Assembly (NCBI RefSeq): GCF_003335085.1
Contig: NZ_QPEJ01000016.1
Coordinates: forward strand, 248,001 to 312,000
DNA from: Polaribacter sp. WD7
GTDB taxonomy: Bacteria; Bacteroidota; Bacteroidia; Flavobacteriales; Flavobacteriaceae
Reading direction: 5' to 3'
Length of the DNA: 64,000 nucleotides
The notes under the pieces were generated by a model. It was not told the origin of the DNA. It made no database searches and worked only from the letters and a program-made list of their open reading frames with translations. The translations under genes and the position numbers were made by a program. Positions 38,419 to 50,505 of the stretch are shown piece after piece (within the stretch, counting starts at the first letter, position 1; the number at the start of each line of letters is the position of its first letter).

Positions 38419-39047
38419 ATGAAATTCATTCATTCTAAAAATAGATTAGAAAGCGTTAGCGACGCTGTTTTTGCATTTGCTGCTACTTTATTAGTTGTAA
38501 ATATAGGTGCAAACACTACACTTACTTCTTTTAAAGAGGAACTACCAAATTTTATAAGTTTTGCAGTTAGTTTTTTTGTGATGATGGCTATTTGGAAAAT
38601 ACATTACAACTTTTTTAGACGTACAAATTATATAGATAATTGGATTATAACGCTAAACATGATTTTACTTTTTACGGTACTTTTCTACATTTTTCCTATA
38701 AGATCTCTCTTTTAAATACTGGCGTTGGAGGTGAGAGAATTACCATAAACGAATTTTCCAATATTTTTCAATTGTACAGTGCTGGTTTTTCTTTAATATT
38801 TTTCTGTTTGTACTTGATGTATTTACGTGCTTTTAAAAAAGACAGAGCTAATAGTAAGAACATTTATTTGAAGTTCTATTATCGTCATTTCTTTATTTTT
38901 GTTTGTGTTGGGGTGTTTTCCTTCTTTCTAGCTAAACTACAAATAGGCTTAAAGTTTGGTGTTCCTGGTTTTATATACGCCTTATTAGGTCCTGTTTGCT
39001 ATGTGCATTCAATGAGGTTTCACAAAAAATATGACACTAACAGCTAA
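38419..39047 (+). pseudogene. TMEM175-like (DUF1211) potassium channel gene with a frameshift
   Basis: The first frame encodes 98 residues beginning MKFIHSKNRLESVSDAVFAFAATLLVVNI, close to the TMEM175 signature R-x-x-x-FSDAVFAI-x-x-TLLVL, and stops at 38713-38715. The coding continues in the -1 frame from about 38700 as LLNTGVGGERITINEF and four more hydrophobic segments to 39047. Adding one T to the TTTT run at 38710-38713 restores a single reading frame of about 209 residues, normal for this K+ channel family. The site is not a canonical slippery heptamer, so a one-base deletion or a sequencing error is more likely than programmed frameshifting. Confidence 0.85.
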
Positions 39048-39457
39048 TTGAATCGTTTATTAAAATGGTTTTTAAGAAAAATTATCTGAGTCATTAGCAT
39101 CAATCCGAATAACGATACCGCTATCAAAAAAGTGTTAGATATTGTCAAAAAATCAGAAAAATTATAAAAAGGAATATTTTTTAAAAAAGAAAAATCAATT
39201 TCAATAAAACCAAACCATTTTTTATCTGAAGATTGAAAAGGTACAAACACCAAACTTAAAAATAATACTGATATACAAAACCATCCTTTTTTAGAAATTA
39301 AAGCTTTTGTTTTATTTAGATTTTTACTAGTTTTTTCTATAGCTATAGTCTTCATAACTATGCTAGTAAAATCTACAGAAGGTGCATTTTCATCAATCTC
39401 TTTTACGTACTTTTTTACAAAAGTGTCTAATTCTTTTAGATGTTTATTTTCTCCCAT
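39044..39457 (-). CDS. Putative membrane anti-sigma factor
   Basis: 137 residues: about 70 cytosolic residues (HLKELDTFVKKYVKEIDENAPSVDFTSIVMKTI), then two transmembrane segments (about 77-92 and 110-128). It matches no family I know well. The call rests on position: it overlaps the ECF sigma gene by 14 bases on the same strand and has the small cytosolic domain plus membrane anchor expected of an anti-sigma factor. Its end overlaps the broken TMEM175-like gene by 4 bases. Confidence 0.55.
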   Translation of the reverse strand: MGENKHLKELDTFVKKYVKEIDENAPSVDFTSIVMKTIAIEKTSKNLNKTKALISKKGWFCISVLFLSLVFVPFQSSDKKWFGFIEIDFSFLKNIPFYNFSDFLTISNTFLIAVSLFGLMLMTQIIFLKNHFNKRFN

Positions 39458-40028
39458 AATTTTCTATTATTTCTGGTTCTACAGTTTTTTCAACAATTAC
39501 CAACAATCGTTTTCTTGCTCTATGCAACTTCACTTTAATGTTCGCTTCAGACAATCCACTAATCTCTATAATTTCCTTTAAACTTAACTCTTCATAATAA
39601 AACATCCAAATAATAGAGCGTTCTTCTTCTGGAAGCTTAAGTAAACATTCATTCAAAATTTTTGCCCTTTCTTTTCTTTCTATTCCTTCTAGAATATCTT
39701 CAACAGATTTAATTTGATTGTAGGTAATTTCATTTATTTCAAAAGTACTTGCGTTTCTTTTATTTTTCTTTACAGCATCTAAAGTTGCATGATACGCAAT
39801 TTTATACAACCATGTAGAAAATTTAGAGTCACCTTTAAAATTACTTAAGTTTTTGTAAGCTTTTATAAACGTGTCTTGACTTATTTCTTCTGCCTCTTCT
39901 TTATTTTTGGTCATTTTATAAGCCAAACTATAGATCATATTTTTATAATTATCTACCAAATACGAAAATGCGTTAGTATCTCCATCAATTACTTTGTCTA
40001 TATATAGTTTGTCTTTGGTGTTAGTCAT
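39444..40028 (-). CDS. ECF-type RNA polymerase sigma factor
   Basis: 194 residues. Region 2 (about 10-85): AFSYLVDNYKNMIYSLAYKMTKNKEEAEEISQDTFIKAYKNLSNF and STWLYKIAYHATLDAVKK; region 4 (about 125-180): LLKLPEEERSIIWMFYYEELSLKEIIEISGLSEANIKVKLHRARKRL. No region 3, so ECF class. The promoter region carries TGTAACC-N16-TGTC on its own strand, consistent with autoregulation, and an equivalent site drives the divergent DUF6249 gene. The distance from that -10 element to the ATG is short, so the mRNA may be nearly leaderless. Confidence 0.93.
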   Translation of the reverse strand: MTNTKDKLYIDKVIDGDTNAFSYLVDNYKNMIYSLAYKMTKNKEEAEEISQDTFIKAYKNLSNFKGDSKFSTWLYKIAYHATLDAVKKNKRNASTFEINEITYNQIKSVEDILEGIERKERAKILNECLLKLPEEERSIIWMFYYEELSLKEIIEISGLSEANIKVKLHRARKRLLVIVEKTVEPEIIENYGRK

Positions 40029-40037
40029 TGTATATAT

Positions 40038-40064
40038 GACATCGTAATTAAAAAAAAGGTTACA
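40038..40064 (-). promoter_or_regulatory. ECF-type promoter of the sigma factor gene
   Basis: Minus strand: TGTAACC (40064-40058), 16 bases, TGTC (40041-40038). The AAC core in -35 and GTC in -10 are hallmark ECF promoter elements. The predicted transcription start falls about 3 bases from the ATG at 40028. Confidence 0.65.
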
Positions 40065-40093
40065 GTTTTTTTAAAAAAGTATTTTTAATTTTT

Positions 40094-40120
40094 TGTAACC
40101 TTTTTTATTCAGCTATCGTC
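40094..40120 (+). promoter_or_regulatory. ECF-type promoter of the DUF6249 gene
   Basis: Plus strand: TGTAACC (40094-40100), 16 bases, CGTC (40117-40120). It is the mirror image of the sigma gene's own site; together they form an inverted repeat with 13-bp arms (40052-40064 and 40094-40106). The predicted leader to the ATG at 40172 is about 45 bases. Confidence 0.72.
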
Positions 40121-40171
40121 AAAGCTACAAACACAATAAAATTAATCATTTAAACTTTAAAATTATATATT

Positions 40172-40552
40172 ATGGAAATCGCAGTTTTGGCAATAATTTT
40201 TGGAAGCATATTTGGAGTGTTCTATTTGTATTTCTCTACAAGAAATAAAGAAAGAATGGCTTTGATAGAGAAAGGTGTAGACGCTAGCATTTTTATGAAA
40301 GGACATGCAAAAAATGCTGCTCCTTTTTGGAAAGTATTTGTATTAAATCTAGGACTATTAGCTATGGGTATAGGCGTTGGTATTCTTTTAGGAAGTCTAC
40401 TAGATTATTATTTTGGTTACAATGGCCCATACAATGAAAGACCATACAATCATGTAAAATCTGAAATTTTCTATTTGGCTTCTATATTTTTATCTTCGGG
40501 TGGCGCATTGTTAATTGGTTTTAACCAAACAAAAAAATTAGATAAAGAATAA
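40172..40552 (+). CDS. DUF6249 membrane protein, probable ECF sigma target
   Basis: 126 residues: a transmembrane segment at the N-terminus (IAVLAIIFGSIFGVFYLYF), a conserved charged block RNKERMALIEKGVDASIF, two more hydrophobic segments (about 53-75 and 102-118). The ERMALIEKG block is typical of the small DUF6249 membrane proteins. Function unknown. It is driven from a TGTAACC-N16-CGTC site shared back-to-back with the ECF sigma gene, so it is a candidate effector or modulator of that system, and ends in a clear terminator. Confidence 0.8.
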   Translation: MEIAVLAIIFGSIFGVFYLYFSTRNKERMALIEKGVDASIFMKGHAKNAAPFWKVFVLNLGLLAMGIGVGILLGSLLDYYFGYNGPYNERPYNHVKSEIFYLASIFLSSGGALLIGFNQTKKLDKE

Positions 40553-40571: not shown

Positions 40572-40610
40572 AAAACCTTTTCATAACTATGAAGAGGTTT
40601 TTTTGTTTTT
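40572..40610 (+). terminator. Intrinsic terminator after the DUF6249 gene
   Basis: Stem AAACCTTTTCAT/ATGAAGAGGTTT (one T-G wobble) with a 4-base loop at 40573-40600, followed by TTTTGTTTTT, about 20 bases after the stop. Confidence 0.85.
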
Positions 40611-40765: not shown

Positions 40766-42088
40766 ATGAAAAAACTAATCTTACTTTTTCTAATTTCAGG
40801 AACTACCTTAGCACAAACAGATTCTAAAATTTATGATATTATCAATGCTGTTTCTGAAAATAGCATTAGAGCCAACGTGAAGACGTTAACAGAATTTGGA
40901 ACTAGAAATACTTTTTCTGACACTATTTCTAATACTAGAGGAATTGGGGCGGCTAGAAGATGGGTTAAAAGTGAATTTAATGCAATTTCTAAAGATTGTA
41001 ACAATTGCTTAAATGTATTTTATCAAAAGGATTTGGTTACTACAAAAATGGGGTCTAGAGTGCCTCATGACGCTTATGTGGTAAATGTTGTTGCCATTCA
41101 AAAAGGTACCAAATACCCCAACAGATTTATAATTATGAGTGGAGATATAGACTCTAGAGCTAGTGATACTATGGATTTTACAACAGATGCTCCAGGAGCC
41201 AACGATAACGCTTCTGGTATGGCAGGAACCATTGAGGCTGCGAAAGTTTTAAGTAAATACAAATTTGAAAGTAGTATTATTTATGTTGGGCTTTCTGGTG
41301 AAGAACAAGGGCTTTTTGGTGGGGCTGGTTTAGCAAAGTATGCTAAAGACAAAGGATGGGATATTATTGGTATTTTAAACAATGACATGATTGGAAACAT
41401 TAAAGGTGTAGACGGAATTATAGACAACAGAGCCTTTAGAATTTTTTCTGAACCTGTACCTGCTAATGAAACAGAAAGACAACGAAAATTGAGACGTTTT
41501 TATGGTGGTGAAGTAGACGGAATTTCTCGTCAATTGGCTAGATATGTGCATAAAACTACAAAAAAATACATGCCCGAAATGAACCCTATGATGATATATA
41601 GATTAGACAGATTTGGTCGTGGGGGACATCATAGGCCTTTTAATGATTTAGGTTTTGCTGGTATTAGAATTATGGAAGCTCACGAAAACTATACACAACA
41701 ACACCAAGATATTAGAACCGAAGACGGAATTAAATATGGAGATACCTTCGAACACGTCAACTTTCCGTATGCTAAAAAATTAACTGCGGTAAATGCCATT
41801 AATTTAGCAAGTTTAGCTTGGGCTCCTCCTGCACCGAAAGAAGTTGCTATAGGGGGTATTGTACAGGCATCAGCAAAACTAAAGTGGTCTAAGGTTGATG
41901 GGGCTGTAGGGTATAAAATTTATTGGAGAGATACCACTTCTCCTACTTGGGATAATAGTCGTTTTGTAACAGAAACTAATTTTACTTTAGAAGGTATTGT
42001 TATAGATAACTTTTTCTTTGGTATATCTGCCGTTGGTAAAAATGGTCATGAGAGTGTTGTAGTATTTCCGAATAAGGTAATGAGGTAA
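40766..42088 (+). CDS. Secreted M28-family metallopeptidase with C-terminal Fn3-like domain
   Basis: 440 residues. Signal peptide MKKLILLFLISGTTLAQ. The M28 core has MSGDIDSRASD (first metal-ligand region), GANDNASGMAGTIEAAKVL (bridging Asp147), VGLSGEEQGLFGGAGLA (catalytic Glu pair), LNNDMIGN and a late His in IMEAHENYTQQHQD. The position usually His in the first M28 motif (H-x-D) is Asp127 here (G-D-I-D). An Fn3-like domain occupies about 350-440 (KLKWSKVDGAVGYKIYWRDT). Likely a periplasmic or secreted aminopeptidase or carboxypeptidase. No T9SS tail. Confidence 0.88.
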   Translation: MKKLILLFLISGTTLAQTDSKIYDIINAVSENSIRANVKTLTEFGTRNTFSDTISNTRGIGAARRWVKSEFNAISKDCNNCLNVFYQKDLVTTKMGSRVPHDAYVVNVVAIQKGTKYPNRFIIMSGDIDSRASDTMDFTTDAPGANDNASGMAGTIEAAKVLSKYKFESSIIYVGLSGEEQGLFGGAGLAKYAKDKGWDIIGILNNDMIGNIKGVDGIIDNRAFRIFSEPVPANETERQRKLRRFYGGEVDGISRQLARYVHKTTKKYMPEMNPMMIYRLDRFGRGGHHRPFNDLGFAGIRIMEAHENYTQQHQDIRTEDGIKYGDTFEHVNFPYAKKLTAVNAINLASLAWAPPAPKEVAIGGIVQASAKLKWSKVDGAVGYKIYWRDTTSPTWDNSRFVTETNFTLEGIVIDNFFFGISAVGKNGHESVVVFPNKVMR

Positions 42089-49374: not shown

Positions 49375-50505
49375 CTATCCTCTAATTCTTTTTTTTCTGT
49401 TACTTTCGTAATCTTCAAAAATCATCTCTCCTAAACCTTTTAAACCTGTATAAAATGCTTTTCCTTGGTTGGCTTGCGTAAAAGCTCTTACAAATTGCAT
49501 TAAATAAGAATCTTGTGCAATCATAAATGTAGTAATTGGTATATGTAACTTTCTGGCTTGTTGAGCCATTGCATAACACTTGTTTACAATATACTTGTCT
49601 AACCCATTACTGTTTTTATAATACTGTCCGTCTGGTAAACGCAAACAACTAGGTTTGCCGTCTGTAATCATAAAAATTTGCTTGTTGGTATTTTTTTTTC
49701 TGCGTAGTAAATCCATTGCTAAATTTAAACCTGCAACCGTATTAGTATGATAAGGTCCCACTTGTAAATAGGGTAAATCTTTTATTTTTATAGTCCAAGC
49801 ATCGTTTCCAAAAACCAAAATATCTAACGTATCTTTAGGGTAGCGTGTAGTTATCAATTCTGCCAAAGCCATTGCAACTTTCTTTGCAGGTGTAATTCTA
49901 TCTTCTCCATATAAAATCATAGAATGACTAATGTCTATCATTAAAACGGTACTCATCTGACTTTTGTGTAGTGTTTCTTCTACCACCAAATCATTTTCAG
50001 ACAAAGTAAAGTTGCCTATCCCATTATTAATTTGTGCATTTTTAATACTTTCTGTAACCGATACTTTATCTAGATTATCTCCAAATTGATACGCTCTAAA
50101 ATCTCCTGTATGCTCATCTCCTGTCCCAGGAGATTTACTTTTATGATTTCCAGAACCGCTTCTTTTAATTTTTCCAAATATTTGATTTAACGCTTGCTGG
50201 CGAATAGCTCTTTCGGTTTTGGGAGTTATTTTAGTACCTCCTGTTCCATCTCCATCAATCTCTTCTTTAATATATCCTTTCTTTTTTAAATCTTCAATAA
50301 AATCATCTATAGTATACGCTGCTGTAGTTAATTTATATTCTTTATCTAAAGAACGTAACCAGTCTATAGCTTCATCAAAATCTCCAGAAGTATGCGTAAT
50401 TAACTCTTTAAAAATTTCAAAAAGTTTTTCAAAAGGAGACTGATTTTTAGGTTCAAAACTTTTAAAAACAAAACCTTTTCGTTTCATATTTTCTTTCATC
50501 ACCAT
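49375..50505 (-). CDS. VWA domain protein, partner of the MoxR ATPase
   Basis: 376 residues. The VWA domain lies at about 180-360 with a MIDAS D-x-S-x-S in VLMIDISHSMILYG, the Thr in MITDGKPS, and LDILVFGNDAW. The N-terminal part is charged and helical (KLFEIFKELITHTSGDFDEAIDWLRSLDKEY, GGTKITPKTERAIRQQAL). No signal peptide, so cytosolic. It is upstream of the MoxR gene on the same strand, the usual order for BchD/BchI-like pairs. The start is uncertain (ATG at 50505, 50499 or 50487). Confidence 0.87.
   Translation of the reverse strand: MVMKENMKRKGFVFKSFEPKNQSPFEKLFEIFKELITHTSGDFDEAIDWLRSLDKEYKLTTAAYTIDDFIEDLKKKGYIKEEIDGDGTGGTKITPKTERAIRQQALNQIFGKIKRSGSGNHKSKSPGTGDEHTGDFRAYQFGDNLDKVSVTESIKNAQINNGIGNFTLSENDLVVEETLHKSQMSTVLMIDISHSMILYGEDRITPAKKVAMALAELITTRYPKDTLDILVFGNDAWTIKIKDLPYLQVGPYHTNTVAGLNLAMDLLRRKKNTNKQIFMITDGKPSCLRLPDGQYYKNSNGLDKYIVNKCYAMAQQARKLHIPITTFMIAQDSYLMQFVRAFTQANQGKAFYTGLKGLGEMIFEDYESNRKKRIRG

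Follow-up and report, generated by a model that had tools for sequence, protein, structure and literature searches.

A probable self-regulated ECF sigma factor circuit in Polaribacter sp. WD7 with a nearly private promoter and DUF6249 as its other target

ECF promoters are characterised by an AAC-type -35 element and a GTC-type -10 element, the style of the SigW and SigM promoters of Bacillus, and transcription from them usually starts 7-9 nt after the GTC. SigAb of Acinetobacter is described as having a very small direct regulon, consisting of itself, relA and one small RNA (PMC12153292, excerpt), and the targets of SigP of Bacillus thuringiensis include beta-lactamases and penicillin-binding proteins (PMC8791391, excerpt). 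EcfO-Reo and CirY-CirZ of Phocaeicola vulgatus are ECF sigma/anti-sigma pairs of Bacteroidota with few prominent targets (PMC13114119, excerpt). Start site mapping in Flavobacterium psychrophilum yielded SM6, a CGT-box ECF motif at genes including those for type IX secretion, and leaderless transcripts made up 5.5% of the mapped messages under consideration (PMC9723704, excerpt). ECF systems with few targets, ECF sigma factors controlling beta-lactamases and Bacteroidota sigma/anti-sigma pairs are already known.

DUF6249 is, to our knowledge, a family of unknown function. In the full text of 5.39 million open papers its name occurred solely in a work titled on a plant kinase family, and TGTAACC was not found there together with a sigma factor in Bacteroidetes; TGTAAC and extracytoplasmic function occurred together in works on Brucella, Bradyrhizobium and Acinetobacter. 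An ECF-DUF6249 circuit was not found in print within this open literature, a scope outside which most subscription journals fall. Here we describe such a locus in Polaribacter sp. WD7. The window, i.e. the whole stretch of DNA analysed, comprises 64,000 nucleotides, and the nearest named relatives belong to Polaribacter and Tenacibaculum.

The ECF-DUF6249 locus and its promoter pair

The three open reading frames of the locus agree with those of the initial annotation, and its features are as follows.

39044..39457, minus strand: 137-aa protein with two hydrophobic helices, probable anti-sigma factor; 14-nt overlap with the sigma gene
39444..40028, minus strand: ECF sigma factor gene, 194 aa (Sigma70_r2 and Sigma70_r4_2)
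40038..40064, minus strand: putative promoter of the sigma-partner operon; TGTAACC at 40064-40058, 16 nt, TGTC at 40041-40038; 9 nt before the sigma ATG
40065..40093, no strand: A/T-tract spacer separating the two -35 elements; predicted to be UP-element-like for both promoters
40094..40120, plus strand: putative promoter of DUF6249; TGTAACC at 40094-40100, 16 nt, CGTC at 40117-40120
40121..40171, plus strand: conserved A-rich leader of DUF6249, from the comparison of loci
40172..40552, plus strand: DUF6249 membrane protein, 126 aa, three hydrophobic helices (PF19762)
40572..40601, plus strand: terminator-like hairpin and T run 3' of DUF6249, suggesting a single-gene transcript (weak alone)

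The sigma protein is short and has sigma regions 2 and 4 only, as expected of the ECF group. Both Sigma70_r2 (66.7 bits, 1.6e-18) and Sigma70_r4_2 (53.7 bits, 1.7e-14) scored above their cut-offs, and the sigma70-ECF model TIGR02937 gave 119.9 bits. The top NCBIfam model was SigW (NF007223) at 127.6 bits, below the cut-off of 209, and the protein is not classed as a SigW equivalog. The divergent gene product matched PF19762 with 52.9 bits (4e-14; cut-off 33 bits) and belongs to that family; its structural model (mean pLDDT 79.5) gave no PDB fold match better than E=1.2.

An anti-sigma-like membrane partner had been proposed by the initial annotation. The 137-aa protein has predicted helices at hydrophobic segments near residues 58-76 and 110-128, and its gene adjoins the sigma gene in 73 of the 76 divergent named loci described below, the location and membrane helices looked for in an anti-sigma factor. 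No Pfam or NCBIfam match was obtained for the protein, and 56 aligned members gave no consistent family in either collection. When the partner profile was compared with the sequences of solved structures (PDB), the anti-sigma factor RsiW was the top match, at a weak E=0.2; the partner model (mean pLDDT 69.8) had no Foldseek match at E<=10. The proposal stays plausible, and this protein is probably the anti-sigma factor, although its sequence supports this weakly.

The terminator scan found one hairpin, as against a shuffle mean of 0.8. Beyond it, the next gene after DUF6249 encodes an M28 family peptidase (40766-42088, plus strand), which is probably outside the sigma circuit. A TMEM175-like channel gene (38419-39047, plus strand) appears to be split: ORF 38419-38715 matches PF06736 (1.2e-18) and is overlapped by the frame 38640-39047, which seems to be its continuation, as after a frameshift.

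Exact matches to TGTAACC-N16-YGTC were confirmed on both strands, at 40038-40064 (minus) and 40094-40120 (plus). One further match, with one mismatch, lies at 50053 of the window; shuffled windows had a mean of 0.69 matches with at most one mismatch, and one shuffle in 100 reached three. A whole-genome scan for the motif, which the initial annotation had called for, recovered the pair at the locus and returned five exact matches in all versus four for the reversed control, so that the count alone is not above chance. The remaining three exact sites lie within long open frames (L004 and L005) or outside them (L001). It is the placement and conservation of the motif that are above chance, not its number in the genome. 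Dinucleotide shuffling of the 76 divergent regions gave 15,200 sequences, of which 31 had TGTAAC-N17-19-GTC on one strand and none had it on both.

Conservation and concerted change of the promoters

Conservation was assessed in a named set of 80 loci, in 76 of which the ECF gene is divergent from and adjacent to DUF6249. Of these 76, 74 have TGTAAC-N17-19-GTC before both genes; L232 has no DUF6249-side site and L221 no sigma-side site, so that each gene carries the motif in 75. Lack of conservation in homologous intergenic DNA, which would have spoken against the initial annotation, was thus looked for and did not occur. An ECF-type promoter before the factor's own gene is the mark by which ECF autoregulation is recognised, and the motif at 75 of 76 sigma genes is consistent with it. 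Both sites also accompany a frameshifted ECF gene (L205, 3285-3859), broken in this way in a Polaribacter MAG with its two promoter sites kept. The DUF6249 site is retained in L228, L248 and L252 as well; L228 and L252 have no ECF gene within the stretch examined, and in L248 the ECF gene is >3 kb from DUF6249, with only a one-off form of the motif upstream of it, as judged by eye.

Seventy-five sites were aligned per side. The invariance of TGTAAC and GTC in this alignment is by construction, since both were demanded by the search. The identical spacing (75/75 per side), the seventh base C (75/75 per side) and an A three bases past the GTC (75/75 and 74/75) were not required by it. Most spacer positions carry <0.5 bit of information; on the DUF6249 side an A-rich stretch reaches 1.1 bit. 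A and T tracts recur approximately 10-20 bp upstream of both -35 elements in the 75 aligned loci per side.

In the window the arms at 40052-40064 and 40094-40106 form the perfect 13-bp inverted repeat that had been annotated, with 29 bp between them, and such a repeat could be a single operator bound by a dimeric repressor or activator instead of two promoters. However, the distance from arm to arm ranges from 21 to 413 bp across 74 named loci, so the repeat is not a unit in itself, and a single palindromic operator was rejected on this variation. In addition, 75 of 76 regions on each side have a GTC at a fixed distance from the arm, and the arms occur upstream of DUF6249 even where the sigma gene is elsewhere (L145, L228, L252). 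We therefore regard the operator as extremely improbable; the comparison supports reading the site as two divergent ECF-type promoters.

On the sigma side, the first ATG follows the GTC at 9-11 nt in 55 of 75 loci, at 2-5 nt in 15 and at 14 nt in one, and four have no ATG within 58 nt of the GTC. Given a usual start 7-9 nt past the GTC, the sigma transcript would be mostly leaderless or nearly so, consistent with the near-leaderless transcript proposed from the window. In the Tenacibaculum loci L197, L198, L200 and L201 the near-leaderless sigma ATG is lost, with ACG in L197, L198 and L200, and the next codons look kept; a non-AUG start of these sigma genes is suggested.

In the DUF6249 leader of named loci a palindrome, TCATA-AGC-TATGA, covers the presumed DUF6249 start site in, e.g., L231, L210 and L221, has matched variants (TCCTA/TAGGA, TCTTA/TAAGA) and is missing from most Polaribacter. 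It was counted in 29 of 75 loci, the rows being related, against a mean of 18.3 and a maximum of 24 in 2,000 shuffles of the arms. Two tandem TGTAACC promoters precede DUF6249 in L151-L154, L157-L160, L163, L179, L299, L301 and L145, and where the two genes are neighbours in such lineages the sigma gene has a single site.

The genome search for divergent ECF-DUF6249 pairs that the initial annotation had advised was made in the genus and the phylum. Among 58 genomes of the window's genus, DUF6249 was found in 32 and the ECF ortholog (E<=1e-60) in 31; all 31 genomes with the ortholog have DUF6249, and G050, the sole extra, has a partial DUF6249 match only. In a phylum sample of 296 genomes, PF19762 matched in 89, with 84 above the cut-off. 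Neighbourhoods were examined for 88 of the 89 DUF6249 matches over the Pfam cut-off, the window's own being left out, using an ECF profile at E<=1e-6. An ECF gene was near DUF6249 in 86 of these 88 (raw count), the gap being within approximately 1 kb in 84 and measuring 1083 and 2008 nt in the remaining two. Of these pairs, 74 are divergent and 12 are co-directional in the order DUF6249-ECF. No ECF gene was seen in the stretch examined around DUF6249 in L145 and L310. The gene following DUF6249 was mostly convergent or unrelated where checked by eye, and a plasmid search gave one short Spirosoma match.

Some arrangements depart from the common one. In L326 (G372), DUF6249 (5e-16) lies ahead of a co-directional ECF gene and one TGTAACC promoter is found upstream of DUF6249. 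Second ECF-DUF6249 pairs within one genome occur in G500 (L390) and G431 (L389). In the former the spacer of both promoters is lengthened by one base, a difference that could insulate the two circuits from each other, and the latter has no strict TGTAAC site.

The phylum sample also contains loci in which the two genes have separated or the motif has drifted. In G089 (L145) the ECF gene closest to the window's sigma factor (36% identity, E=1e-34; next best 9e-19) is approximately 275 kb from DUF6249. This unlinked gene has its own TGTAACC-N17-GTC, 9 nt before the ATG, and DUF6249 has two tandem sites. Of the 74 divergent phylum loci, 52 have strict TGTAAC on the DUF6249 side and 50 have it on both. 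Fourteen of the 22 loci without a strict DUF6249-side TGTAAC have TGAAAC, GGAAAC or TGCAAC on both sides, and eight have no full pair under the looser pattern. Applied to 73 loci, one wide-gap locus being left out, the looser pattern gave a pair in 64 and no full pair in nine. The third base of the -35 element is equal on both sides in 63 of the 64 pairs, where shuffling gave a mean of 41.5 and reached 63 in 0 of 10,000 trials, a comparison that overstates the concordance because just two independent changes underlie it: on the ECF tree, T and another base were exchanged at this position only twice, on both sides each time. Spacer lengths are equal on both sides in 57 of the 64 pairs. The conservation, the unlinked sites of G089 and the concerted drift of the -35 elements together support the proposal that the sigma factor drives itself and DUF6249 from two ECF-type promoters.

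Promoter-like sites beyond the locus

The strict form TGTAACC-N17-GTCA was searched in the 58 genus genomes and the site list was sorted by eye. ECF-DUF6249 intergenic regions held 59 strict sites in 31 genomes (32 loci, G004 having two), with one site missing in each of G013, G026 and G055 and both in G048. Off the locus, the 31 genomes with the ECF ortholog (111.6 Mb) had 10 strict sites and the 27 lacking it (75.9 Mb) had six, which is about equal density, and the reversed control gave 39 and 16, respectively. In the window's genus the strict motif therefore occurs elsewhere at background rate only. Phylum-wide, the total for the bare motif likewise gave no excess over the reversed control, as judged by eye.

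The two motifs might be kept merely because they share an intergenic region, for a cause unrelated to this sigma factor; another ECF factor might read them, and these genomes have many ECF-like candidates (29 at first look in G000). Against this stand the background level of the strict motif in genus genomes without the ECF ortholog (6 sites, 27 genomes) and the occurrence of the motif with both genes of G089 despite their separation, and we consider this explanation very unlikely. The reading we prefer is that the promoters belong to the neighbouring sigma factor.

Extra sites were encountered in other Flavobacteriaceae. TGTAACC-N16-CGTC-N-TA matched in 65 of 149 genomes (148 genera). Twenty regions with apparently unpaired sites were picked by eye, nine of which held ECF or DUF6249 genes and 11 neither; in these 11, five sites precede serine hydrolases of the beta-lactamase superfamily (PF00144), one precedes a DUF4440/DUF3471 protein (L320) and two lie within long frames. 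No Pfam match was obtained at the apparently unpaired sites of L318, L321 and L322. A second search, in 397 genomes, required an ATGAA start, which favours genes beginning that way, and returned 37 rows (35 distinct sites) in 30 genomes versus 14 for the reversed control. It was followed up at 30 loci, one per genome, the second sites of G500 and G431 being left out: 15 sites lie before a non-DUF6249 frame of at least 100 aa, four before DUF6249, five within long frames and six before short frames.

Ten of the 15 extra-target genes belong to PF00144, and the others are one each of DUF4440/DUF3471, Rce1-like, DUF6702, DUF2268 and a gene with no match. The binomial probability of 10 in 15 is approximately 1e-22 if PF00144 makes up 0.3% of genes and 3e-14 at 2%, treating the 15 as independent; the 0.3% rate is taken from eight PF00144 places in the window's genome over an assumed number of roughly 2,700 genes. 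The 11 PF00144 proteins concerned (two in G457) scored 167-241 bits against a cut-off of 27 and are members of that family. An SxxK string falls within residues 51-140 in 11 of 11, a string match that marks a candidate catalytic motif only. They fall into three groups that share 22-35% identity with one another, suggesting repeated gain of the promoter at hydrolase genes. All 15 genomes with extra targets carry the ECF-DUF6249 pair; 14 of them have the strict promoter at both genes, and G715 has it at DUF6249 only. At the eight PF00144 places of the window's genome, the looser promoter scan gave one match (L370), >2 kb past the PF00144 start, and hence there is no sign of extra targets in this genome. 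Sites of this type before genes for secreted serine hydrolases in some relatives point to a role at the cell envelope.

These extra sites, before serine hydrolase, DUF4440/DUF3471, Rce1-like, DUF6702 and DUF2268 genes, would also suit a sizeable regulon with degenerate promoters, of which DUF6249 is only the best-conserved member. Counts with one mismatch were 7.05 per Mb in genus genomes with the ECF ortholog and 6.13 in those without, and the reversed controls gave 11.28 and 11.24. As the counts fall below the control in both kinds of genome alike, weaker targets are neither visible nor excludable at this level, and we hold such a regulon to be unlikely.

The proposed circuit and its relation to known systems

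We propose, as the probable reading of the locus, that the ECF sigma factor controls its own gene from a nearly private promoter and has DUF6249 as its other target. A sequence of the TGTAACC-N17-GTC type stands before the operon of sigma factor and partner and likewise before DUF6249 on the opposite strand, is kept at both in most sampled lineages and has changed on both sides together in others. In this circuit the two-helix partner would hold the sigma factor at the membrane until an envelope signal releases it, and the freed sigma factor would transcribe its own near-leaderless operon together with DUF6249. Transcription of the operon would bring amplification as well as new inhibitor, which would make the circuit self-limiting.

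We take DUF6249 to be, most likely, the core effector of an envelope response at the membrane, and prefer this over a co-regulator because the circuit would otherwise have no visible output in the window's genus. It might instead be a third regulatory component, namely a sensor or co-anti-sigma factor acting at the membrane by feedback on the partner or the sigma factor. The near-obligate pairing and the co-directional DUF6249-ECF order (12 of 88) are typical of signalling modules, and many of the invariant residues of DUF6249 fall in the TRNKER-ALIEKG stretch after helix 1, which seems to resemble a docking segment rather than an active site. However, if DUF6249 were purely regulatory the circuit would lack an output, no other strict-consensus target being visible in the genus. 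Furthermore, a control search with PF19762 also matched Haloferax volcanii (one of three control matches, unspecified which, is below the cut-off), an organism in which bacterial sigma factors are not expected. A regulatory DUF6249 is possible, and we are inclined to doubt it.

With DUF6249 taken as effector, a wider interpretation can be offered tentatively, at less than even confidence. The locus may represent an insulated, phylum-wide envelope-stress module of Bacteroidota with DUF6249 as its conserved membrane output or sensor-output, in which a private promoter co-evolves with the sigma factor and serine hydrolases of the penicillin-recognising fold have been recruited repeatedly, so that it would sense or repair damage to peptidoglycan or related envelope esters or amides.

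What is new is the tie of DUF6249 to an ECF sigma factor across the sampled phylum, together with a candidate promoter that would control it and the prediction that hydrolases of the beta-lactamase fold are additional targets in some relatives; these open the function of DUF6249 to direct testing. A sigma factor whose promoter is nearly private could find use in Bacteroidota as an insulated part for expression, and the joint drift of both -35 elements provides a natural series from which sigma-promoter specificity might be read.

The locus resembles systems of the Bacillus SigW/SigM kind in its ECF domains, the overlapping membrane-partner gene, the AAC-type -35 and GTC-type -10 elements and the apparent self-regulation, and differs from them in belonging to Bacteroidota, in scoring below the SigW cut-off (127.6 vs 209 bits) and in having one DUF6249 gene as its conserved output. 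EcfO-Reo and CirY-CirZ differ in their named targets, which are NigD proteins and a Spy-like chaperone, and the main text describing them does not mention DUF6249 (PMC13114119). Likewise, SM6 of F. psychrophilum has type IX secretion among its targets, and TGTAAC is absent from the main text of that study (PMC9723704). In contrast to the targets of SigP (PMC8791391, excerpt), the putative beta-lactamase-fold targets here were seen in some relatives only and not in the window's genome. SigAb (PMC12153292, excerpt) is alike in the small number of its ECF targets and unlike in phylum, targets and inhibitors, the small regulon proposed here being one read from sequence.
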